Source: Actinomycetota bacterium
GTDB taxonomy: Bacteria > Actinomycetota > Actinomycetes > Mycobacteriales > Mycobacteriaceae
DNA: 16,218 bases
Assembly (NCBI GenBank): GCA_005789055.1
Contig: SYAA01000049.1
Span: 1 to 16,218, forward strand
Reading direction: 5' to 3'
Position numbers and translations under genes: made by a program. Of this stretch, positions 1 through 16,218 are shown piece by piece. Every line of letters starts with the position of its first letter. Position 1 is the stretch's first letter. Under the pieces are notes generated by a model. The model made no database searches and was not told the origin of the DNA. It worked only from the letters and a program-made list of their open reading frames with translations.

Positions 1-46
1 AGCGCGCCCGCGTTAATCTGATCGCAACTCAAGTGGGAGACACCAA

Positions 47-1873
47 ATGACCTCAGCGACCATTCCCGGTCTGGACAACGCACCGACCAAGCACGCCGGC
101 TTGCTCAGCTGGGTCCGCGAGGTCGCCGAACTCACCGGACCGGATCGGGTCGTGTTCGCTGACGGTTCGGTGGCGGAGTATCAGCGTCTGTGCGACCAAC
201 TGGTGGCCGCCGGTACCTTCACCGCGTTGAGCGCACCGGACAAGCCGGGTTCCTACCTGGCCCGCTCTGAGCCCTCTGACGTGGCCCGCGTCGAGTCCCG
301 GACGTTCATCTGCTCGGCGCGCGAGGCCGACGCCGGTCCGACCAACAACTGGATGGCGCCCGAGGAGATGCGCGCCACGATGACCGAGTTGTACCGGGGG
401 TGTATGCGCGGTCGCACCATGTACGTGGTGCCGTTCTGCATGGGACCCCTCGGCGCGGACGATCCCAAGCTGGGTGTGGAGATCACCGATTCGGAGTACG
501 TCGTGGTGTCGATGCGGACCATGACCCGGATGGGCACGGCGGCGCTCACCAAAATCGGCGATGACGGATTCTTCGTCAAGGCACTGCATTCGGTGGGCGC
601 GCCACTGGAACCTGGCCAGGCCGACGTCGCGTGGCCCTGCAGCGAGACCAAATACATCAGCCACTTCCCGGAGACCCGGGAGATCTGGAGTTACGGATCC
701 GGCTACGGCGGCAACGCGTTGCTGGGCAAGAAGTGTTACTCGCTGCGGATCGCCTCGGTGATGGCCCGCGACGAGGGATGGCTCGCTGAGCACATGCTGA
801 TCCTCAAACTCATCTCCCCACAGGACAAGGCCTACTACGTGGTGGCGGCGTTCCCGTCGGCGTGCGGTAAGACGAACCTGGCGATGCTGCAGCCGACCAT
901 CCCGGGCTGGCGCGCCGAAACCCTCGGCGACGACATCGCCTGGATGCGTTTCGGTGAGGACGGTCGGCTGTACGCGGTGAACCCGGAGTTCGGGTTCTTC
1001 GGGGTGGCACCGGGCACCAACTGGAGTTCCAACCCGAACGCGATGAAGACGATCGCCGGCGGAAACACCGTTTTCACCAACGTGGCGCTGACCGACGACG
1101 GTGACGTGTGGTGGGAGGGCCTCGAGGGTGAACCGCAACACCTGATCGACTGGAAGGGACAGGACTGGACGCCGGAGTCCGATCATCCTGCGGCGCATCC
1201 GAACTCGCGCTACTGCACGCCGATGTCGCAGTGCCCCACGCTGGCCCCGGAGTGGGATGATCCGCAGGGTGTGCCGATTTCGGCGATCCTGTTCGGTGGC
1301 CGGCGCAAGACGACGGTGCCACTGGTGACGCAGGCCCGCGACTGGCAGCACGGGGTCTTCATCGGCGCGACCCTGGGCAGTGAACAGACCGCGGCAGCGG
1401 AAGGCACGGTTGGCACCGTGCGTCGCGACCCGATGGCCATGCTGCCGTTCCTGGGTTACAACGCCGGCGACTCCTGCCAGCACTGGATCGACCGCGGCCC
1501 GAACGCCGACTCCTCGAAGCTGCCGAAGATCTTCGTCGTCCCCGGGTTCCGCCGCGGCGACGACGGCCGCTTCCTGTGGCCGGGCTTCGGTGAGAACAGC
1601 CGGGTGCTCAAGTGGATCGTCGAACGGGTCGAGGGCACGGTTGAGGGCATCTCGACTCCGATCGGTGTCGTGCCGTCGATCGGCGATATGGACCTCGGTG
1701 GGCTCGACGTCACCGAGTCCGACGTCGCCGAGGCACTGCGCGTCGACACCGCAGAGTGGCGCGCGGAAATTCCCTTGATCGAGCAGTGGTTCGACTTCCT
1801 CGGCGAGAAGTTGCCCACCAGCATCTCCGATGAGTTCGAGTCGCTTAAGCAACGATTGGCCCAGGCGGACTAG
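47..1873 (+). CDS. pckG: Phosphoenolpyruvate carboxykinase, GTP-dependent
   Basis: Cytosolic gluconeogenic enzyme interconverting oxaloacetate + GTP with PEP + CO2 + GDP. The 608-aa product has the length of the mycobacterial family (about 606 aa in M. tuberculosis PckA) and matches it almost throughout. Visible motifs are the P-loop FPSACGKTN (residues 269-277, with the family's reactive Cys), the substrate region around [23 protein letters not shown], and [11 protein letters not shown]. The ATG at 47 follows a GGGAGA ribosome-binding site at 35-40, and the protein begins [10 protein letters not shown] as in homologues. Oddity: residues 476-477 (SC) and 497-500 (VVPG) stand where remembered homologues have YF and FVNW, so an aromatic residue of the guanine pocket appears to be Gly here. 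The last 106 bp are duplicated downstream. It probably forms a transcription unit with the carbonic anhydrase gene 18 bp downstream. The family call is certain; full catalytic activity is not. Confidence 0.96.
1768..1873 (+). repeat. 106-bp direct repeat, copy 1 (3' end of pckG)
   Basis: The last 106 bases of pckG, ending at its TAG stop, recur in direct orientation at 2841-2946 (offset 1073 bp). I find two differences: C at 1784 versus G at 2857, and C at 1862 versus G at 2935. Each changes Gln in this copy to Glu in the other. Similarity ends sharply at both edges: upstream of 1768 is pckG, upstream of 2841 is a fadD gene, and the bases after the two stop codons are unrelated. Confidence 0.95.
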
Positions 1874-1891
1874 GGGCTTAGGGGCAAGCGG

Positions 1892-2593
1892 GTGCTGTCG
1901 CGGCGGTCTTGGTTCGCCGCTGCCGGTATGACCGCGGCCGCGATTGCTGCGGGTTGCGGACCTCCGAAGAAGACCGCCGCGCCCGCCGAGGTAACGCACC
2001 CGGTGATCAGTGGGGCCGACCAGGCGTTGGCGGAGTTGCTCGACGGTAACCGCCGGTTCGTCACGGCGAAGAGGACCTATCCCGACCAGTCGATTCAGGT
2101 GCGACGCGAGTTGTCGACCGCACAGAAGCCATTCGCGGTCGTGCTGACATGCTCCGACTCCCGCGTTCCTCCGGAGGTGGTCTTCGATCAGGGTCTCGGC
2201 GACCTCTTCGTGGTGCGTCTGGCGGGCAATATTGTCGACCAGGCGGTACGGGGCAGTATCGAGTACGCGGTCGAGGAATTCGGCACACCGCTGATCATGG
2301 TGTTGGGCCACCAGAACTGCGGCGCGGTGGCAGCCACGCTCAAAACCCTGCAGCCGCCGTTCACCACACCCGCCGGCGAGGTGGGCACGTTGGTTGCCGC
2401 CATCGCCCCGGCGGTCGAGGCGGCCAAGGGCAGACCGGGGGAACTGCTCGATAACGCGGTCCGGGCCAATGCCAGCCAATCGGCCGATCAGCTCAGGGCA
2501 ACCTCGGAGCTCACGACGTCCCTCGATTCGGGCGCTGTCAAAATTGTGGTCGGGTACTACAGCCTGCAGGACGGCACCGTCAGCATCATCTGA
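1892..2593 (+). CDS. Beta-class carbonic anhydrase, Tat-exported predicted lipoprotein
   Basis: Zinc enzyme hydrating CO2 to bicarbonate, predicted outside the cytoplasmic membrane. The 233-aa product carries all beta-class hallmarks: CSDSR at 87-91 (Zn ligand Cys87, Asp89/Arg91 dyad) and HQNCG at 140-144 (Zn ligands His140 and Cys143). The N-terminus is a twin-arginine signal (SRRSWFAAAG), a short Ala-rich hydrophobic stretch, and a lipobox AAGC with lipidation Cys22, followed by a Pro/Ala/Lys linker. The GTG at 1892 is chosen because it begins just before the RR motif; a start at Met13 would destroy the signal. It lies 18 bp after pckG, suggesting co-transcription. Bicarbonate supply fits the CO2/oxaloacetate chemistry of its neighbour, but an extracytoplasmic enzyme would act on external or wall-space CO2, so that link is inference. 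Confidence 0.93.
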   Translation: MLSRRSWFAAAGMTAAAIAAGCGPPKKTAAPAEVTHPVISGADQALAELLDGNRRFVTAKRTYPDQSIQVRRELSTAQKPFAVVLTCSDSRVPPEVVFDQGLGDLFVVRLAGNIVDQAVRGSIEYAVEEFGTPLIMVLGHQNCGAVAATLKTLQPPFTTPAGEVGTLVAAIAPAVEAAKGRPGELLDNAVRANASQSADQLRATSELTTSLDSGAVKIVVGYYSLQDGTVSII

Positions 2594-2614
2594 ATTCGTC
2601 GATATAGCCTGTCG

Positions 2615-2620
2615 TAGAGT
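2615..2620 (+). promoter_or_regulatory. Candidate -10 element for a leaderless fadD transcript
   Basis: TAGAGT fits the mycobacterial TANNNT -10 pattern and ends 7 bases before the ATG at 2628, so transcription would begin at or next to the start codon. No Shine-Dalgarno sequence precedes that ATG, which agrees with a leaderless mRNA. A second AT-rich match (GATATAG) lies at 2601-2607. This rests on spacing and motif only. Confidence 0.35.
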
Positions 2621-2627
2621 CCCCTAC

Positions 2628-2906
2628 ATGCAGATCCGCGAGCATGCGCAAGCCAGCCCCGACAAACCCGCCGTTATCATGTATCCCTCCGGAGTCACCG
2701 TCACCTTCGGCGAGCTCGAGGCACGGGCGAATCGGTTGGCCCACCTGTTCCGTCAGGCAGTTCTACGTGAGGGCGGTCCCGTTGCGATCCTGATGGAGAA
2801 CAATGAGCACTTTCACATGGCGATGTGGGCGGCCCGCCGCAATTCCCTTGATCGAGGAGTGGTTCGACTTCCTCGGCGAGAAGTTGCCCACCAGCATCTC
2901 CGATGA
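2628..2906 (+). pseudogene. fadD4: Truncated fadD4-type acyl-CoA synthetase, fused out of frame to a pckG fragment
   Basis: The first ~71 codons (2628-2840) encode the N-terminus of an ANL-superfamily fatty-acid-CoA ligase. Blocks such as MQIREHAQASPDKPAV, FGELEARANRLAH and [11 protein letters not shown], ending MWAARR, resemble remembered M. tuberculosis FadD4 (Rv0214, downstream of pckA there). At 2841 the sequence switches to the duplicated pckG tail in a different frame, giving about 20 unrelated residues and a stop at 2904-2906. The AMP-binding P-loop, acyl-binding site and C-terminal domain, hundreds of residues in intact enzymes, are all missing, so no activity is expected. The rest of the gene is not in the window. 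Calling the fragment fadD-like is secure; the exact paralogue rests on memory. Confidence 0.88.
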
Positions 2907-2946
2907 GTTCGAGTCGCTTAAGCAACGATTGGCCGAGGCGGACTAG
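2841..2946 (+). pseudogene. pckG 3'-end relic (direct repeat, copy 2)
   Basis: This stretch encodes the last 34 residues of PckG (from [10 protein letters not shown] to RLAEAD) and its TAG stop, with no upstream PckG sequence. It matches 1768-1873 at 104 of 106 bases. Its two coding differences restore Glu, and EEW agrees better with remembered mycobacterial PckG than the QW-type sequence of the intact gene, so this tail may be the older allele. It joins fadD sequence on the left and the LuxR-type gene on the right. The CTAG at 2943-2946 provides stops on both strands. Confidence 0.92.
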
Positions 2947-5672
2947 CGGATCCCGACTCCGGGCGGTCCCGAATCGTAGTGCAGCAGAGCCTTACTGAGC
3001 CCGGCGCGGGTGGTGACGTTCAGCTTGCGGAACGCTCGGTACAGGTGACCGTCGACGGTGCGCGCTGAGATGCTGAGTTGGGCGGCAATCTCTTTGGAGG
3101 TCTGTCCGTCTGCGGCCAGTTCAGCGATCCGGCGCTCCTGAGCGCTGAGCGTGGCGGGTTCACCCAAGGATTGTTTGGCTGAGGCCCCGGCGGCCCGCAG
3201 TTCAGCACGCGCGCGCTCGGTCCACGGGCGCGCACCCAGTCGATCGAAACCGTCCGCCGCCACTCCCAGCGCGGCGCGCGCGTCGGTGTTTCGTCGCATC
3301 CTTCGCAACCACATGCCCTGTGCCAGGGCAATTCTCGCGTGCTCAAAAGGGAACTCGACGATTCCGGGGTGGGTGAGCGCGGACTGGTAAAGCTCGCCGG
3401 CGTCGGCATCGGGTGCCGTCATCGCCGATATCGCGGTGGTCAAAGCTGCCACCCGCGGAGAGATCTGGGCCAGGTTCAGCCGCACCGCCTCGTCCGCGAG
3501 TGCGCGGGCCTCATCGGCTCGCCCGAAGCGCAGTGCCGCCTCGACCGAATCCAGCATGTCATCGGCGACTTCGTGAATATTGTGCAGCGGCCAGTGTCCC
3601 GGCGGGCTGATGTTGACCGCTGCGTGATACGCCGCCTCGTAGTCGGCGTCCGCGAGGCCAACCCGCACGGCGATTCGGTCCGCGGCATCCAGGAGTCGTT
3701 GCAGCCCTAAGGGTGTGGCCCAGGCTGACACTTCAGCGGCGTACTGACGTGCGGTCTCCATATCGCCTCGCCCGGCGGCCAGTACCCCGAGGTCGGCGAG
3801 TAACTGGTGACGACGCAATTGGCTGCCCGGGATCCGGTGCGCCATCTCCAGGCAGGCCGCCCCGACCTGCTCGGCCCGGTCCCACTGCCCGGTGGCGATC
3901 AGATCAATCAGGACGACGCGCCCGCTGTCGATGGCATCGATGGAACCACCGTGTTCGCTGAGTTGTGCGTAGGCCCGTTGCAGCGGAATGCGGAAGTCGG
4001 CCATTGCGCCGACGCAGTGCGCCGGGAATGCCAACAGCATCATCCGCTGCGACGGTACCTGTGCGAGTGACTCCACATACCCACCCAACAGCGCGCGGAC
4101 CGCGTTCGCGGTTGCGGCGATGTCGTCGATACCGGTCCGATACATCAGGACGGCCGGATCCAGCCGGGCCTCCAATCGAATCAGGACGGCATTGGTGTGC
4201 TCCCGATGCCGAGCGCTGCCTGAATAGTTGGTGATCGACATCAGCAGGTAGACCAGTCGGTTCACGGTTTTGTCGTCCAGCGCGTCGGCCTTGGTCAGGG
4301 CGTCCAGGACCCGACGGTGGGTTGAGGTTACGTCGCCGTGGCTGTGAAACGCACGGTAGGAATCCGCCAGAACCGCGAGCGCCGATCCACTTTCGCCGAT
4401 TTCGGTACTTTCGAGCAGATCCTCCGCCCCGCCAACCTGGCCGGCTCGGGCGGCAACGAAGACCGCGTCGGCCAGCAACTCAGTCCGGCGGTCAGGTTCG
4501 GTACTCAACGCGGCGGCACTGCGCAGCCACTCGACGGCGACCGCAAGCCCGCTTCGGCGAATCGACACTTTCGCGGCCTGAGCGAGCAGGTCGGCCACGT
4601 GCTGATCGGGTTCGGTGGTCGCCGCGGCCAAGTGCCAGGCGTGGCGCACCAGTACGTCCTCGTAGAGTCCGGCGAGGTCGCGGTGAGCGTCGCGACGGTT
4701 CTGCGGATCGGCCCGGTGGATGACCGCGGCACGGACCAGCGGATGGCGAAAAGCGATCTCTCCCAGGGGATTCACCACCAGAAGCCCCACGGTGACTGCG
4801 GGCTTGACATTGCGCATGACATACCTGGCCCGGGCCGAGGACCCGACGCTGCCGGCGACGCCGTCGAGTGCCGCCCGCAGTAACTCGGCGCGAACAGCCG
4901 TGTCGAGTTGTCCCAGCCGCCCGGCGAACACCGACACCAGGCGTTCAGTCAACGGCAGCGTCGCGGCACCGTGTTCGATCTGGTCAGCATTCCGCGGAAG
5001 CTCGGCCAACGCCAGCGGGTTGCCCGTCGCCGCTGCCAGGATCGCCCGTCGGGCGGCCGCCGTTAGTGGCACCCCCGCGCTATCCAACAGCCGTGCCGAG
5101 TCCTCGTAATCCAGCGGAGCGACCGGCACGTCACTCCAGCCCGCACTGGTGAACGCCGACTGGTGCGGTATCCGGCGCCCGGCCACGATGCGGACGTGAG
5201 GATGGGTCAGTCGACGCCCCACGGCACCGAGGACCTCCGCGCTGATGCTGTCCAACCAGTGGCTGTCGTCGATCACCAGCAGCACCGGCTGGGTGTGGGC
5301 CGCCGCCTCCAACAGGTTCAGCAACGCTGCCACCAGAGGTAACACCGCCACCACGGAATTCGAATCGCCGCCGAGGACCGGGGCCAACACTGCGCGGTCC
5401 TGCTCGTCCAGGCCGGCCTCGTAGGGCTTCAGCCCGTACACCACCTGATTCAGCCCGCCCAAGGCGAAGGGTTGCTCGGCCTCCACACCCAGAACCCGCA
5501 CCACCTGCCAGCCATCGGCCGCCGCGAGCGCGCACACCTGATCGATCAACGCCGTCTTGCCGACGCCCGGCTCCCCGGACACCACAACTGCCCGCTCGGC
5601 GTCCTCGGTCAGCATCCTGCTCAGCTGGGAAAGTTCGGCCTGTCGGCCGATCAGATCGTTTCCCCCGGGCAT
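2943..5672 (-). CDS. LuxR-family transcriptional regulator with N-terminal ATPase (LAL/STAND type)
   Basis: A 909-aa large ATP-binding LuxR regulator, cytoplasmic and DNA-binding. It begins DLIGRQAEL, typical of MalT-like AAA/STAND proteins. Walker A is GEPGVGKT (33-40) and Walker B is LLVIDD (131-136) followed by SHWLD. A long Ala/Leu/Arg-rich helical middle section looks TPR-like. The C-terminal LuxR helix-turn-helix spans about 842-899 ([21 protein letters not shown], then ARTVDGHL). No adenylate-cyclase domain is present, unlike several M. tuberculosis relatives. The gene diverges from esxBA across a 113-bp spacer, so it is the natural candidate to control that promoter and its own. Its stop codon is supplied by the pckG relic, so the original C-terminus may have differed. 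The ligand is unknown. Confidence 0.92.
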
Positions 5673-5692: not shown

Positions 5693-5712
5693 TAGCCGAA
5701 TTCGAGTAATTT

Positions 5713-5748
5713 CACCCATCCCTACGGGGTGCTCCGGAGCTTAAGCTC
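5713..5748. promoter_or_regulatory. Cluster of palindromes and candidate -10 upstream of esxB
   Basis: Three dyads lie side by side: CACCC/GGGTG arms at 5713-5717 and 5727-5731 around a CCCTACGGG-type core, the perfect palindrome GCTCCGGAGC at 5731-5740, and the perfect palindrome GAGCTTAAGCTC at 5737-5748. TAAGCT (5742-5747) inside the last fits a TANNNT -10, which would place transcription start near 5754 and leave a leader of about 30 bases. A repressor or activator site overlapping the esxBA promoter is plausible, but the -35 region is not clear. Confidence 0.4.
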
Positions 5749-5785: not shown

Positions 5786-6091
5786 ATGACAGGACCCATG
5801 CAGACCGATGCCGCCACACTCAGTGCGGAGGCCGCAAATTTCGACCGGATTGCCGGCGAACTCAAGGCAGTGATCCAAGGGGTGGAGTCCACCGGAGCCG
5901 AACTGGCCAGCGGATGGCAGGGCCAGGCGGGAACAGCTGCCCAGCAAGCGTTAGTGCGCTTTCAGGAGGCCGCTCGCGCACAGGAAAGCCAGCTCATCGA
6001 CATCTCCAGCAATATCTCGCAGGCCGGAATTCAATACACCAGCTCCGACGATGAACAAGCCGGGTCGCTGTCCAGCCAGATGAATCTCTGA
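5786..6091 (+). CDS. esxB: ESX-1 secreted WXG100 protein EsxB (CFP-10 homologue)
   Basis: Small secreted type VII substrate that pairs with EsxA as a four-helix heterodimer and carries the export signal for the pair. The 101-aa product aligns with remembered CFP-10 along its length: TDAATLSAEAANFDRI, the WXG turn GWQGQAGTAAQ, RFQEAARAQ, and the C-terminal YxxxD signal YTSSD. It ends SLSSQMNL, where M. tuberculosis has LSSQMGF, the tail read by EccCb1. The ATG at 5786 is preceded by an AGGAAG ribosome-binding site. It is the first gene of the plus-strand unit. The PE and PPE genes usually just upstream are absent. Confidence 0.95.
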   Translation: MTGPMQTDAATLSAEAANFDRIAGELKAVIQGVESTGAELASGWQGQAGTAAQQALVRFQEAARAQESQLIDISSNISQAGIQYTSSDDEQAGSLSSQMNL

Positions 6092-6125: not shown

Positions 6126-6416
6126 GTGTCAGAGCAGAAATGGAATTTTTCCGGAATCGAGGCCGGATCAAGCGCGATTCAGGGGTCCGTCGGTACGACC
6201 CAGGGCCTTCTCGATGAGGGCAATACTTCACTGAAAAATCTGGCCGCCGCATGGGGCGGCAGTGGCTCGGAGGCCTATCAGGCCGTTCAGGCGCGCTGGG
6301 ATGCCACCAGTGCCGAACTCAACACCAGTCTGCGGGAACTGGCGAACCGCATCAGCGAAGCCGGCGCTAACATGCAGAGCACGGAAAAGGGTGTAGGAAA
6401 CTTGTTCGGCGGATAG
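6126..6416 (+). CDS. esxA: ESX-1 secreted WXG100 protein EsxA (ESAT-6 homologue)
   Basis: Partner of EsxB, the hallmark ESX-1 substrate, linked in pathogens to membrane damage and in M. smegmatis to conjugation. The 96-aa product closely matches remembered ESAT-6: [19 protein letters not shown], the WXG turn in [24 protein letters not shown], and the C-terminal stretch [15 protein letters not shown]. It ends NLFGG rather than the GMFA of M. tuberculosis. The GTG start at 6126 is set by the GAAGGAG site. It is 34 bp after esxB and almost certainly co-transcribed with it. A canonical locus would continue with espI; here eccD1 follows after 92 bp. Confidence 0.95.
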
Positions 6417-6443: not shown

Positions 6444-6512
6444 ATGGTGACGGTGTTCGGCGATAAACTGCCGCTGCGACTGGCGGGCCTAATGGCGGCA
6501 CAGCGCCGATGA
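6444..6512 (+). other. 22-codon ORF ending in the eccD1 start (possible leader peptide or espI remnant)
   Basis: An ATG at 6444 opens 22 codons (starting MVTVFGDKLPL, ending AAQRR) whose TGA at 6510-6512 overlaps the eccD1 ATG as ATGA, the arrangement used for translational coupling. It sits where espI lies in M. tuberculosis. An Arg-Arg ending also closes remembered EspI, but the resemblance is too short to prove descent. GGGAG abuts the ATG too closely to be an ideal ribosome-binding site. Confidence 0.35.
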
Positions 6513-8053
6513 CATCGCTGATCGCGCCGGTTGCCGGTGCCGCCGCCAGAAACCCGGCGGCGGCATCGGCTCAACCCGCGACCACCCGGGTGACGATCCT
6601 CACCGGCCGGCGGCTGACCGACCTGGTGCTGCCGGCGACGGCGACCATGGACTCCTATCTCGACGACACCGTCGCCGCCCTCGCCGAGTTGTCCGACGAC
6701 GCCCCCGCCGATGTGCTGGCCGGATTCGATTTCGCCGAACAGGGCGTGTGGGCCTTCGCCCGGCCCGGCGGCCCGCCACTGAAGGCCGACCAGTCACTCG
6801 ATGATGCCGGGGTGGTCGACGGATCACTGCTCACCCTGGTGACAGTGAGCCACACCGAACGGTACCGGCCACTCGTCGAGGACGTCATCGACGCCATCGC
6901 GGTCCTCGACGAGTCGCCGCAGTTCGACCGCAGCGCACTCAATCGTGCTGTGGCGCTCGGTATCCCGGTGATCCTGCTGGCACTGAGCGCGGTGGCGGTG
7001 CAGGCGTGGTCGAACACCGGGCGCAATCTGCTGTGGCCGGCGGCATTGGGCATCCTAGGCGTGGTGTTGCTGGCCGGCAGCATGGCCGCGATGAGGATCT
7101 ACAAGAACGTCGGCCTGTCAGAGAGCCTCCTGGTGGCGGCATTCCCGGTGACTGCAGTCGCGGCCGCATTGGCGGTGCCACTGCCCGCCGGTAGCGACGG
7201 CCTGGGCGCACCGCAACTCGCCGGCGGCGCCGCGGCCGTGATGTTTCTGGCGTTGGTGACCCGCGGGGGTCCCCGCCGGCGGGCGCAGGTGGCCACGTTC
7301 GTCGTCGTCATCGGGTTGGCCATCACCGCGGCCGCCGTCGCGTTCGGCTACGGGTGGGGGCAATCGGTACCGTCCGGGGCGATCCTGTTCGGTCTGTTCA
7401 TCGTGACCACGGCCGCTAAATTGACCGTCCTGATCGCCCGGATCGCCCTACCGCCGATTCCGGCACCGGGTGAGACCGTCGAGATCGACGAGTTACTGGA
7501 TCCCGTTGCGGCAGAGGGTGATACCGGCAACCAGACACAGACCTGGAAGGCCATCATCGCCTCGGTTCCGCAGTCCGCGGTGCGGCTCACCGAGCGCAGC
7601 GAACTTGCCAAACAATTGCTGATCGGCTTCGTGGTGGCCGGCACCCTGGTGATGGCCGTCGGTGCCGTCACGGTGGTGGTGCGCGGACACTTCTTCATTC
7701 ACAGCGTCGTGGTGGCGGGCCTGGTCGCGGTGACGTGCGCGTTTCGGTCGCGGCTTTACGTCGAGCGGTGGTGCGCCTGGGCGCTGCTCGCGGCCGCCGC
7801 CATCATCCCCCTGGGCGTGGTGGCACGGCTCAGCCAGTGGTATCCGTATAGCGCGTGGTGGATGCTGGCGGGCTACCTCGGTGCGGCTGCCGTGGCGCTG
7901 GCCGTCATCGCGGCCACATCCGGGATGGGCCGTATCTCGCCGGTTTCCAAACGGATTCTGGAAATCATCGACGGCCTCGTGATTGCGTCCATCATTCCGA
8001 TGCTGCTGTGGATCGCCGGCATCTACGACACGCTCCGCAATTTGCGGTTCTGA
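6509..8053 (+). CDS. eccD1: ESX-1 type VII secretion membrane component EccD1
   Basis: Inner-membrane component of the ESX core (EccB, EccC, EccD, EccE), thought to form the membrane vestibule. The 514-aa product begins with a cytoplasmic ubiquitin-like domain (about 25-110, starting ATTRVTILTGRRLTDLVLP), continues with DVIDAIAVLDESPQFDR, and then has about 11 hydrophobic segments to the C-terminus (LLWIAGIYDTLRNLRF). It matches remembered M. tuberculosis EccD1 (511 aa) so closely, including QSLDDAGVVDGSLLTLV and ARIALPPIPAPGETV, that ESX-1 is favoured over ESX-2, 3, 4 or 5. The ATG at 6509 overlaps the stop of the preceding small ORF. Confidence 0.97.
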   Translation: MTSLIAPVAGAAARNPAAASAQPATTRVTILTGRRLTDLVLPATATMDSYLDDTVAALAELSDDAPADVLAGFDFAEQGVWAFARPGGPPLKADQSLDDAGVVDGSLLTLVTVSHTERYRPLVEDVIDAIAVLDESPQFDRSALNRAVALGIPVILLALSAVAVQAWSNTGRNLLWPAALGILGVVLLAGSMAAMRIYKNVGLSESLLVAAFPVTAVAAALAVPLPAGSDGLGAPQLAGGAAAVMFLALVTRGGPRRRAQVATFVVVIGLAITAAAVAFGYGWGQSVPSGAILFGLFIVTTAAKLTVLIARIALPPIPAPGETVEIDELLDPVAAEGDTGNQTQTWKAIIASVPQSAVRLTERSELAKQLLIGFVVAGTLVMAVGAVTVVVRGHFFIHSVVVAGLVAVTCAFRSRLYVERWCAWALLAAAAIIPLGVVARLSQWYPYSAWWMLAGYLGAAAVALAVIAATSGMGRISPVSKRILEIIDGLVIASIIPMLLWIAGIYDTLRNLRF

Positions 8054-13398: not shown

Positions 13399-14817
13399 TC
13401 ACGAGTGCACTGCCGAAGGCTGTTGCATGAGCGCTTCTATAAAGCGGCTCTCCCCGTCCAGGGAGATCGGCCGAACTGCCAATCCCTGGTGCCTGGGCGT
13501 TGCTATTTGGTTGTCCCGCAACACCACCCGGCCGATGCCGGGTTGTCCACCGAGATGGGTGACGGCTCCCGGCCACACCACTTGCGATACGGCGCCGATG
13601 TCCGCGCCGATCATCTCGGCCAGTGCACCCAGCGGAGATTCCAGTGTGACTCGCCCGCCCGCGGCGGCGGCGCGCACCGCAAACCAGGCCGGATTCTGTG
13701 CCTCGCCCACTACGACGCAGGAATCGACGTCGTCGAACGGTAGGTACACCCGGTAACCGTCGGGGTTCTCGCCCACCAGGACCCCGGCCGATCCGATCAG
13801 CACCGGCCAGTGCTGGTCGCCGAAGAGGTCCTGGCCGTCCAACGCCGCCCGTTGGGCCCCGGACAGCGGGGCGAATCCCTTCGGCTTCTTGCGTTTCGTC
13901 GCGGTGGTCAACAACACCGTGGAGCGCGGTGCGGCCCCGACGCCGATGCGGATCCGAGTAATGGTGCGATCCGCGGGCACCGACCACCACACGTCCGGAC
14001 CGCCCGCGGCGGTGAACGCCGCGGTGACCGAATCGGGTCCGCGCAGCCTCGACCAGTTCTCCCGTTCGAAGCTGATCATCGTGGCGGCGTTGAAATCGGT
14101 GAAGTCGGCGCAGCAGCGTGCGTCGATTCCGGCTCCGGCCAACCGGTCGGCGATGCGCGTCGTCGAGGCCACCAGGTAGCGGGCCAAGCCTGCGGCGCCG
14201 GCATCGCGGCGCTGCGCCGAGTGCCGGGTGCGTAGTGGGTCGGCGCGCAGCAGCAGCCAGGTGCGGCGGTGCGCCGGTGCCGGGTCCGATCCGACGGCGT
14301 CGTCGTACATGCTCAGTACGTCGGCGGATGCGGTCGAGCCGATCCGGTACCCGGCAGAGACCACGTCGGCCTCGAGGTCCGGGCAGTGCACCGCCAGCAA
14401 CTGCTCCAGCATCGCGGTGTCCAGCACGTCCTCGCTTCGGGCCTGACCGTCGACGATCACGGTCGGGGTGAAGGGGCGGGCAAAGAGTTCGATGAGCGCG
14501 ACCAGGGTCTCGCCCTGCCAGCGCACGGCCACCGGATCACCCGGCAGCACGGTGGCGCCGACGACGGCCTTCGACGCCGTCTCCGGCGCCCGGCGGCGTC
14601 GCCCGATCCACCCGAACAACGTCCGCACCCACCCTGTCAGCCGCCGTCCGCGGAAGGTGACCAACGCCAGCACCGCGGCCGCCGCCACCACCGCGATGGC
14701 CCAGCGTTGGTGGCGGGTGTCGAGGACGAGGAACACCAGAGCGGGGACCGCAATGCCGACGACGAGTGCGTAACCGGTGCTGAACCTCAGCCGCAGTGGA
14801 CTCCGGGAGATCTTCAT
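13399..14817 (-). CDS. eccE1: ESX-1 type VII secretion membrane component EccE1
   Basis: Peripheral inner-membrane component of the ESX core complex. The 472-aa product (462 aa in M. tuberculosis) opens with two membrane helices (about 14-33 and 38-55) separated by LDTRHQRW, followed by a basic stretch (RRRR) and a soluble domain. Conserved blocks match remembered Rv3882c: VVGATVLPGDPVAVRWQGE, ELFARPFTPTVIVDGQA, VHCPDLEADVVSAGYRIG, SAQRRDAGAAGLARYLVAS and GGPDVWWSVPAD. The ATG at 14817 overlaps the mycP1 stop as ATGA, indicating tight coupling. The next gene, espB, starts 28 bp after the EccE1 stop. Confidence 0.96.
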   Translation of the reverse strand: MKISRSPLRLRFSTGYALVVGIAVPALVFLVLDTRHQRWAIAVVAAAAVLALVTFRGRRLTGWVRTLFGWIGRRRRAPETASKAVVGATVLPGDPVAVRWQGETLVALIELFARPFTPTVIVDGQARSEDVLDTAMLEQLLAVHCPDLEADVVSAGYRIGSTASADVLSMYDDAVGSDPAPAHRRTWLLLRADPLRTRHSAQRRDAGAAGLARYLVASTTRIADRLAGAGIDARCCADFTDFNAATMISFERENWSRLRGPDSVTAAFTAAGGPDVWWSVPADRTITRIRIGVGAAPRSTVLLTTATKRKKPKGFAPLSGAQRAALDGQDLFGDQHWPVLIGSAGVLVGENPDGYRVYLPFDDVDSCVVVGEAQNPAWFAVRAAAAGGRVTLESPLGALAEMIGADIGAVSQVVWPGAVTHLGGQPGIGRVVLRDNQIATPRHQGLAVRPISLDGESRFIEALMQQPSAVHS

Positions 14818-16169
14818 CGGAGCTTCAACGCCCGTCCGGCCAGAGCCACCAATGCCAGCAGCACTCCCAGGCCCAGGACCCCGGCCGCCACGGCGGTGAT
14901 CGGCCCACGATCAGGCGGCGGCACCACGACCGGGGGCGGCAGCTGTTGGATAGTGGGCAACGCCTCCTCGGGGCCGGTCGCAACGTCCCACGTGAGCGCA
15001 TCGTGCGCATCGATGACCCCCGCGCCGACGGCATTGTCGACGCCGCCGCCGGGATTGCGCGCGGTGGACACGATCCGGTCGATGACCTCTGCCGGCGTCA
15101 ACTCCGGAAAGCGCTGTCGCACAAGGGCTGCCACACCCGACACGTAGGCCGCGGCAAAGGATGTTCCGGCGATCGGGACCGGCCCGTCAGCGCCCTGCAG
15201 GGCGTTCACCGGTTCGCCGTCACCGCCCAAACCGGTGACGTCCTCGGCGGGTGCTGCCGCACCCACCCACGGACCCTGCATCGAGAAGGGACTCGGCACC
15301 CCGGTCGGTGCGATACCACCGACCGTCAGCACCAGGGAGTCGTACCACGCCGGCGTGACGATCGTCTGGACGTCCTGCCAGCCGCGAGGATCGTTGGGCC
15401 CGGACAGGTCGATCGGCGGGTTCTGGTTGCAATCACCGCCGGTGTTGCCGGCCGCGACGACGACCACCGCGCCTGTGAAATTGACGGCGTAGGTCAGCGC
15501 TGCGCCCAGCGAGGCCTGATCGACCGGTCTGGCCACCTTGAAGCAGGCCGCTTCGCTGATGTTGATCACACCGGCGTCAAGATTGGCCGCGTGCACGATG
15601 GCCCGCGCCAGACTGCGAATCGACGCCGCCGCCGGAGTGGTGTTGGGGTCATTCGGGTCGACCTGCACGTCCACCGGTTCGAAGGCCTCCGACGTCTGGC
15701 GCAAGGAGATCAGCCGCGCGTCGGGTGCCACACCGATGAACGCGTCCGTCGGGGCGCCCCGGCCGGCGATGATGGATGCGGTGATGGTTCCGTGCGAATC
15801 GCAGTCGGACAACCCGTCTCCGGCCGCGTCGATGAAATCGCCGCCGGGTTCGGCGGGAACCCGCGGGGAGGCGTTCACTCCGGTGTCGATCACCGCCACC
15901 GTGATCCCCGCCCCGGTGGCGAACCGTTGTGCCCCACGGATGTCTAAATAGTCGTAGGCCCAGGGCGGATCGCGGAATTCAGAATTCGGCAGCGTGGTCG
16001 GTGCCGAGCAGTAGCGACGTTGTTCGAAGGGTAACTCGGGATCGACGGTGTCCGCCGGTGTCGCCTCTGGATCTATCTCGGGTGGGGGGACTGCCAGTGC
16101 CGGGGCCGCATTGAGCAATACCAGGGTCAGCGCCGCCACCATCGCCAGGAAGCGCCGCACACCCATCAC
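14814..16169 (-). CDS. mycP1: Mycosin-1, subtilisin-like serine protease of ESX-1
   Basis: Membrane-anchored periplasmic protease that cleaves EspB and stabilises the ESX-1 complex. The 451-aa product has a signal peptide (about 1-26, VAALTLVLLNAAPALA), the N-terminal extension with Cys54, and the catalytic triad Asp95 (VIDTG), His126 (CDSHGT) and Ser337 (AGTSFAAAYVSG), with oxyanion Asn242 (AAGNTGGDC). It ends in a Pro-rich linker, a membrane helix (about 425-445) and the basic tail GRALKLR. All active-site residues are intact. GTG 16169 and ATG 16166 are equally possible starts; the longer is given. It is the first gene of the minus-strand unit in this window, with eccE1, espB, espL and espK downstream. 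Confidence 0.97.
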   Translation of the reverse strand: MMGVRRFLAMVAALTLVLLNAAPALAVPPPEIDPEATPADTVDPELPFEQRRYCSAPTTLPNSEFRDPPWAYDYLDIRGAQRFATGAGITVAVIDTGVNASPRVPAEPGGDFIDAAGDGLSDCDSHGTITASIIAGRGAPTDAFIGVAPDARLISLRQTSEAFEPVDVQVDPNDPNTTPAAASIRSLARAIVHAANLDAGVINISEAACFKVARPVDQASLGAALTYAVNFTGAVVVVAAGNTGGDCNQNPPIDLSGPNDPRGWQDVQTIVTPAWYDSLVLTVGGIAPTGVPSPFSMQGPWVGAAAPAEDVTGLGGDGEPVNALQGADGPVPIAGTSFAAAYVSGVAALVRQRFPELTPAEVIDRIVSTARNPGGGVDNAVGAGVIDAHDALTWDVATGPEEALPTIQQLPPPVVVPPPDRGPITAVAAGVLGLGVLLALVALAGRALKLR

Positions 16170-16180
16170 CGTCTTCGTCG

Positions 16181-16216
16181 TCAGCCCGGGCTGAATGCGC
16201 TGTCGACGGTGTCGGC
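16181..16216 (-). other. Possible 3' end of an upstream minus-strand gene
   Basis: On the minus strand the window edge reads an open frame ending ADTVDSAFSPG and a TGA at 16183-16181, 11 bases before the mycP1 GTG start. This would be typical operon spacing, so the mycP1 unit may begin outside the window. The piece is too short to identify and could be chance. Confidence 0.3.
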
Positions 16217-16218
16217 AT

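Follow-up and report, generated by a model that had tools for sequence, protein, structure and literature searches.

The window analysed here, a stretch of 16,218 nucleotides, is the entire contig C349 (SYAA01000049.1) of a metagenome-assembled genome (MAG) of an uncultured Mycobacterium, G000 (GCA_005789055.1), which consists of 450 contigs with a completeness of 55%. Its left part carries pckG, and the 3′ end of this gene is found once more downstream, fused to the start of an acyl-CoA synthetase gene on one side and joined to a large LuxR-type regulator gene and components of an ESX-1 secretion system on the other. The features around this joint are the following.

47..1873, plus strand: pckG, full-length open reading frame (ORF) for phosphoenolpyruvate carboxykinase (GTP), with Pfam PEPCK_N and PEPCK_GTP
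1473..1638, plus strand: stretch of pckG with nine private nonsynonymous A>C/T>G changes, from comparison with relatives
1768..1873, plus strand: repeat copy 1, the 3′ end of the full-length pckG, from repeat comparison
1892..2593, plus strand: beta-type carbonic anhydrase, full-length ORF, Pfam PF00484 (Pro_CA)
2628..2840, plus strand: codons 1–71 of a fadD4-type acyl-CoA synthetase gene, truncated at the joint, Pfam PF00501 (AMP-binding)
2628..2906, plus strand: 92-residue ORF spanning the joint, with a counterpart (P0001) identical at 88 of 92 residues
2840..2841, no strand: joint of the cut fadD4 (fadD4′) and the pckG 3′ end, without perfect microhomology
2841..2946, plus strand: repeat copy 2, pckG 3′ end joined to LuxR, 94% identical to contig C302 of the relative G127 (pckG-LuxR without insert)
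2943..2946, no strand: CTAG holding the stop codons of both the pckG tail and the convergent LuxR, from the sequence

The duplication of the pckG tail claimed in the original prediction is real: the two copies are identical at 104 of 106 nt, with mismatches at 1784/2857 and 1862/2935, and are spaced by 1073 nt (~1.07 kb). The repeat also ends on the pckG stop, the last three bases of the 106 nt being the stop codon, and a looser alignment (1758–1876 and 2831–2949) gives 95% identity. There are two families of direct repeats of at least 25 nt in the window, and the second is a 26-nt match at 81%. Neither a third copy of the repeat nor the lost 3′ part of fadD4 was found in G000: a DNA search with 1500–3000 returned, besides the region itself, a single further match to a distant carbonic anhydrase, and the best other match to full fadD4 is only 37% identical, both negatives being of limited strength because ~45% of G000 is absent.

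Between the copies lie the carbonic anhydrase and the fadD start, as predicted. The carbonic anhydrase has relatives of 89–94% identity in public metagenomes (P0122, P0123 and P0125–P0130), and its best match outside G000 is 52% identical (in G139, among nine genomes that did not include G253). Two stretches in viral contigs fit a pattern for it, and neither encodes a relative. Judged from its reading frame, the insert contributes an intact carbonic anhydrase ORF. The name fadD4 is what we take the truncated gene to be, from the original prediction and general knowledge, the profile itself saying AMP-binding enzyme; its product is 80–90% identical in amino acids to the fadD4 start of five compared relatives. 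Residues 45 and 50 of fadD4′ are G in 117 and D in 118 of 120 aligned hits, and the window has G45V and D50G there; decay of fadD4′ was first considered for these changes and left unused, as base errors explain both equally well. Both the cut fadD4 and copy 2 of the pckG tail are predicted to be inert. No sigma-70-type promoter was found in 1700–3100 by a simple scan, and the same interval has two sites resembling terminators, against 0.8 expected from shuffles, with none of them at a pckG stop.

At the joint, codon 71 of fadD is fused out of frame to the pckG 3′ end, in agreement with the original prediction: the fadD4 frame crosses the joint outside the pckG frame and runs to a stop at 2904–2906. 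No base is shared by the two sides. Of the 10 bases before the joint 7 agree with pckG, and among 20,000 random position pairs 0.6% are at least that similar. The resulting 92-residue ORF has a counterpart on a separate 653-bp contig in ENA, P0001, with three member sequences. Compared as protein rather than DNA, P0001 aligns over 92 of 92 residues with the same tail, and it alone carries that tail among the best 120 of 220 hits. At two of its four differences it is P0001, not the window, that has the family residue; a third is found in P0001 alone, and the fourth falls at a family-variable site. Since base errors could explain some of the four, the independence of P0001 is not proven by them. 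P0001 argues against a single assembly error, although an artefact common to both sequences may still be the cause. Another protein, P0002, with 93% identity in the fadD4 part, goes on as fadD4 beyond the joint, after which its own end diverges.

The junction was searched for across overlapping sets of 148, 396 and 397 genomes, which cover part of the genus. With 2700–3000 as a query, 210 of the 397 genomes gave a match; among the matches listed, those to fadD4 stop at window positions 2832–2841 (query 133–142) and those to pckG start at 2831–2850 (query 132–151), and only G000 spans the joint in the 148-genome and 397-genome searches. The segment 1874–2843 matched 59 of 396 genomes (E ≤ 1e-40), none outside G000 above 87% among the matches listed.

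Gene orders after pckG in the relatives explain both sides. On the right, G253 has pckG, LuxR, esxB, esxA and the start of eccD on a single contig (its locus L137 is the reverse complement, letter-identical, of record L023, a LacPavin Mycobacterium MAG). In G127, pckG-LuxR is on C302 and LuxR-esxB-esxA-eccD on C328, the two contigs overlapping by 190 nt at 97.9%. No gene lies between pckG and LuxR in either genome. The idea that the rearrangement brought ESX-1 beside pckG is therefore not supported, as both genomes have pckG-LuxR-esxB-esxA without the insert. On the left, a single DNA match extends across the carbonic anhydrase-fadD4 boundary in G098, G294, G241 and G167 (four of 396 genomes besides G000), with pckG 1.7–3.1 kb upstream on the same strand. 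Thus, of the predicted pckG-carbonic anhydrase-fadD4 order, the adjacency of carbonic anhydrase and fadD4 is found in relatives, and pckG directly before an intact carbonic anhydrase is not. The same order with an intact fadD4, which the original prediction had counted against itself, occurs in part in G194, where the final 39 nt of a carbonic anhydrase stand between pckG and an intact fadD4, so that the carbonic anhydrase is a remnant only. In G311, G391, G106 and G025 the gap between pckG and fadD4 is at most 20 nt. In G111, pckG is immediately followed by 40 residues left from the LuxR C-terminus (L029:2800–2919), then by a bestrophin-like gene and intact fadD4, and eccD has no match there at E ≤ 1e-40. 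In G346 a small ORF stands between LuxR and the fadD4 start, which lies at a contig end. These differing orders indicate that what follows pckG varies within this group. It is the divergence of the carbonic anhydrase order and the LuxR order at the pckG stop that sets the end of the repeat.

A recombination joint between two pckG neighbourhoods, as originally predicted, is supported, both halves existing apart in relatives, the left one with an extra stretch or in decayed form. With a probability of roughly 55%, the stretch 1874–2946 is the footprint of one-sided, or homology-facilitated illegitimate, recombination (HFIR) between two gene orders of one Mycobacterium group, pckG-carbonic anhydrase-fadD4 and pckG-LuxR-ESX-1. 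One end of a linear piece with the former order would have paired with the resident pckG, and the other, broken in fadD4, would have been fused without homology to the same gene at a point 106 nt short of its stop. The resident pckG tail would then have been left as copy 2 ahead of LuxR, with the carbonic anhydrase gained and ESX-1 unharmed. Ku-dependent end joining might have made the joint, which is a guess: a Ku gene is present in six of seven genomes searched, including G000 (G194 is the one without), and Ku/LigD joining in mycobacteria is, by the available text, the topic of PMC3102665. Purely from economy, we infer which order was resident and which incoming, a gain of ~1 kb being set against a block of more than 13 kb. 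One-sided recombination accounts for all parts in one step.

Several points weigh against it. The right parent order is intact in relatives, while the left parent occurs only with the extra 1.7–3.1 kb or as a remnant; in no relative examined does an intact carbonic anhydrase come directly after pckG, and for this reason we infer the left parent order as it stands. The homologous crossover is not located, though pckG is common to both orders. The sequence right of the joint is ~94% identical to G127 and has no equal of the tract of 200 identical nt at the left end of the window. P0001 may share source material with the window, and its three member sequences may include the window's own ORF. The patchy 7/10 similarity at the joint would also suit a library chimera, and duplication followed by deletion yields the same product. 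Lastly, the bin G000 mixes strains, as indicated by the overlap of its contig C247 (1–885) with window 15334–16218, 885 nt at 95.6%. Overall, the structure is likely a real-looking but ordinary rearrangement scar.

The tract mentioned above, window 2–201, is identical to G127 over 200 nt, compared with 105 mismatches in the next 1,675, and is perhaps a recent exchange tract ending near 201. A direction of transfer taken from this tract was dropped because the right side does not match.

The two bases that differ between the copies are present, and as proof of recombination between two alleles, for which they had been taken, they are weakened: G127 and G253 agree with copy 2 at each position, and the changes in copy 1 are private, turning E into Q both times. 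At the first site the best 120 listed pckG proteins have E in 115, Q in two including the window, D in two, and one unparsed. More widely, the nine private changes within codons 471–540 of pckG fall on seven codons and are all A>C or T>G, and five of the seven codons are conserved in 118 or 119 of 119 homologues. The A>C/T>G share of private nonsynonymous changes is 9/16 in pckG versus 7/61 in LuxR and eccD (Fisher p = 4e-4), with LuxR polarised with G253. The LuxR polarisation depends on the outgroup (window 51 nonsynonymous/62 synonymous with G253, 19/25 with G346), and sites with gaps, with less than 75% outgroup agreement or with neither sequence having the outgroup base are dropped. In the available text of PMC4787001, substitution errors are raised at A and T in MiSeq second reads, the direction A>C/T>G not being stated there, and at T in GAII and HiSeq. 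From their pattern, the changes at 1473–1638 are probably base errors in thin coverage, or else real decay of pckG. In both cases the two mismatches speak only weakly for two alleles.

Two rivals survive, each at clearly lower odds than one-sided recombination. In the first, an assembler or library error would have joined pckG-carbonic anhydrase-fadD4′ of one strain to the pckG 3′ end-LuxR-ESX-1 of another. This is rather improbable, although much about the assembly invites it: the MAG is incomplete and highly fragmented, strain variants are in the bin (C247 against the window end), the error-like A>C/T>G cluster suggests thin coverage, the joint has patchy GC similarity, and among the matches listed none of the other 396 genomes contains it. 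Because no base is shared at the joint, a k-mer overlap cannot be the cause, so that a chimeric molecule is required; with P0001, a separate contig having the same joint and four different residues, it would have to be met twice. In the second, a merodiploid with two pckG copies would have arisen, with or without a later deletion between fadD4 and the second pckG, through a single crossover or through a small circle (carbonic anhydrase-fadD4′-pckG 3′ end) integrating in the pckG tail. The structure produced is the same, and linear DNA received by conjugation can, in E. coli, be closed into a circle by ligation and integrate by single crossover, according to the available text of PMC3240628. 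One extra step, or a crossover within 106 nt, is needed, however, and no intermediate was seen; this route is about as unlikely as a chimeric contig. Site-specific integration at the pckG 3′ end, in which copy 1 would restore the gene and copy 2 would be the far junction, as the original prediction preferred, is very improbable: the repeat does end at the gene's stop, but no tRNA was found, no integrase is among the 12 window proteins scanned (other window ORFs being outside that scan), the recognised genes of the insert are the carbonic anhydrase and the cut fadD4, and the same pckG-LuxR boundary exists without the insert in G253 and G127, at the point where the two orders diverge. As an att element, too, the insert was rejected, its content being a pckG neighbourhood of other relatives and its right edge a broken gene.

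Integrase-mediated insertion at gene 3′ ends is a well-known system, and the window resembles it in that a duplicated gene tail flanks an insert; unlike it, there is no tRNA and no integrase in the proteins scanned, and two pre-existing orders explain the boundary. One-sided recombination has likenesses in E. coli and Vibrio, where one end is anchored by homology, the other has little or none, and the old piece stays. HFIR at E. coli conjugation was very rare, with three of four clones lacking homology at the joint (PMC3240628, available text), and an HFIR-like process has been proposed for type VI secretion effector arrays in Vibrio (PMC5361080, available text). Unlike the E. coli cases, the event here is read from one contig and one ORF, with donor and recipient not in hand and the crossover unlocated; in the Vibrio arrays effector genes are displaced and immunity genes kept, by the portion of PMC5361080 available, whereas the gain here is a carbonic anhydrase plus a truncated fadD4. 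The window is also like the mosaics of mycobacterial distributive conjugal transfer, in which chromosomal segments are exchanged between strains of the same genus (PMC3706393; PMC9040860; both as far as their available text goes). In M. smegmatis transconjugants, integration by microhomology or without homology is considered possible for some regions (PMC3706393, available text). Unlike in that system, transfer was not observed here, the event being known from sequence alone. Among the matches listed in literature searches, none on HFIR with Mycobacterium was on mycobacteria by title and none on pckG/ESX-1/Mycobacterium synteny had pckG; none was found on ESX-1 in freshwater Mycobacterium MAGs.

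The block to the right of the joint comprises the following features.

2943..5672, minus strand: large LuxR-type regulator, Pfam AAA_16 and GerE
5699..5722, plus strand: 24-bp motif AATTCGAGTAATTTCACCCATCCC between LuxR and esxB, recurring near other ESX-1 genes
5786..6091, plus strand: esxB-like WXG100 gene, profile match
6126..6416, plus strand: esxA-like WXG100 gene, profile match
6509..8053, plus strand: eccD, TIGR03920
11814..13370, minus strand: espB family, 283.9 bits, below the curated cut-off of 450
13399..14817, minus strand: eccE, profile match
14814..16169, minus strand: mycP mycosin, profile match

The names esxB and esxA are given by position. In addition to these ESX-1 components (the WXG100 pair, eccD, eccE, the mycosin and the espB family), a PPE gene, eccCb, eccCa and eccB are on C247, which may be of another strain, and eccA1 was seen only in G127 (C508). 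Because C247 overlaps the window end and carries these ecc genes, the ESX-1 locus is probably complete on sequence grounds, though its order is unusual against the reference order of M. tuberculosis.

At four-fold degenerate sites, divergence from G253 is far smaller in LuxR, esxB, esxA and the compared part of eccD than in pckG. Agreement between the window and G253 is 176/304 in pckG, 400/500 in LuxR and 49/56 in the eccD part, and between G253 and G127 it is 187/307 in pckG and 393/463 in LuxR. A block much less diverged than the adjoining pckG is as expected if it was exchanged between lineages, and these values suggest that the LuxR-ESX-1 block has been horizontally exchanged. Two results count against a simple exchange: the window and G127 differ little between genes (pckG 269/332, LuxR 409/465), and esxA is unusually divergent between them, at 75% amino acid identity. 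A plasmid origin of the block was rejected, eccD matching eight plasmid records and LuxR 51, all below 60% identity.

The motif AATTCGAGTAATTTCACCCATCCC occurs at 12 places in five of ten genomes with at most three mismatches, and the reversed control at none in the ten. The places are window 5699–5722 and C247 (1400–1423) in G000, C35, C328, C508, C139 and C263 in G127, C21 and C106 in G253, C190 and C337 in G346, and C69 in G311. Their contexts include sites upstream of an eccA1 operon, beside the gene adjoining mycP, and upstream of rRNA dimethylase genes, and the motif is perhaps an operator of a LuxR/ESX-1 regulon. A wider, tentative reading, with the odds against it, is that the pckG 3′ end may be a recurrent switch point where ESX-1, LuxR and the shared 24-bp operator are exchanged between species as a module, the window being one imprecise, one-sided exchange.

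An odd-looking chimera thus becomes a readable event between two gene orders, with a precise joint, and probably a small example of ordinary chromosome remodelling beside an ESX-1 secretion locus. Distributive conjugal transfer in M. smegmatis depends on an ESX-1 system (PMC8262963, available text). If the block exchange is true, ESX-1 and its dedicated regulator would move between environmental mycobacteria.

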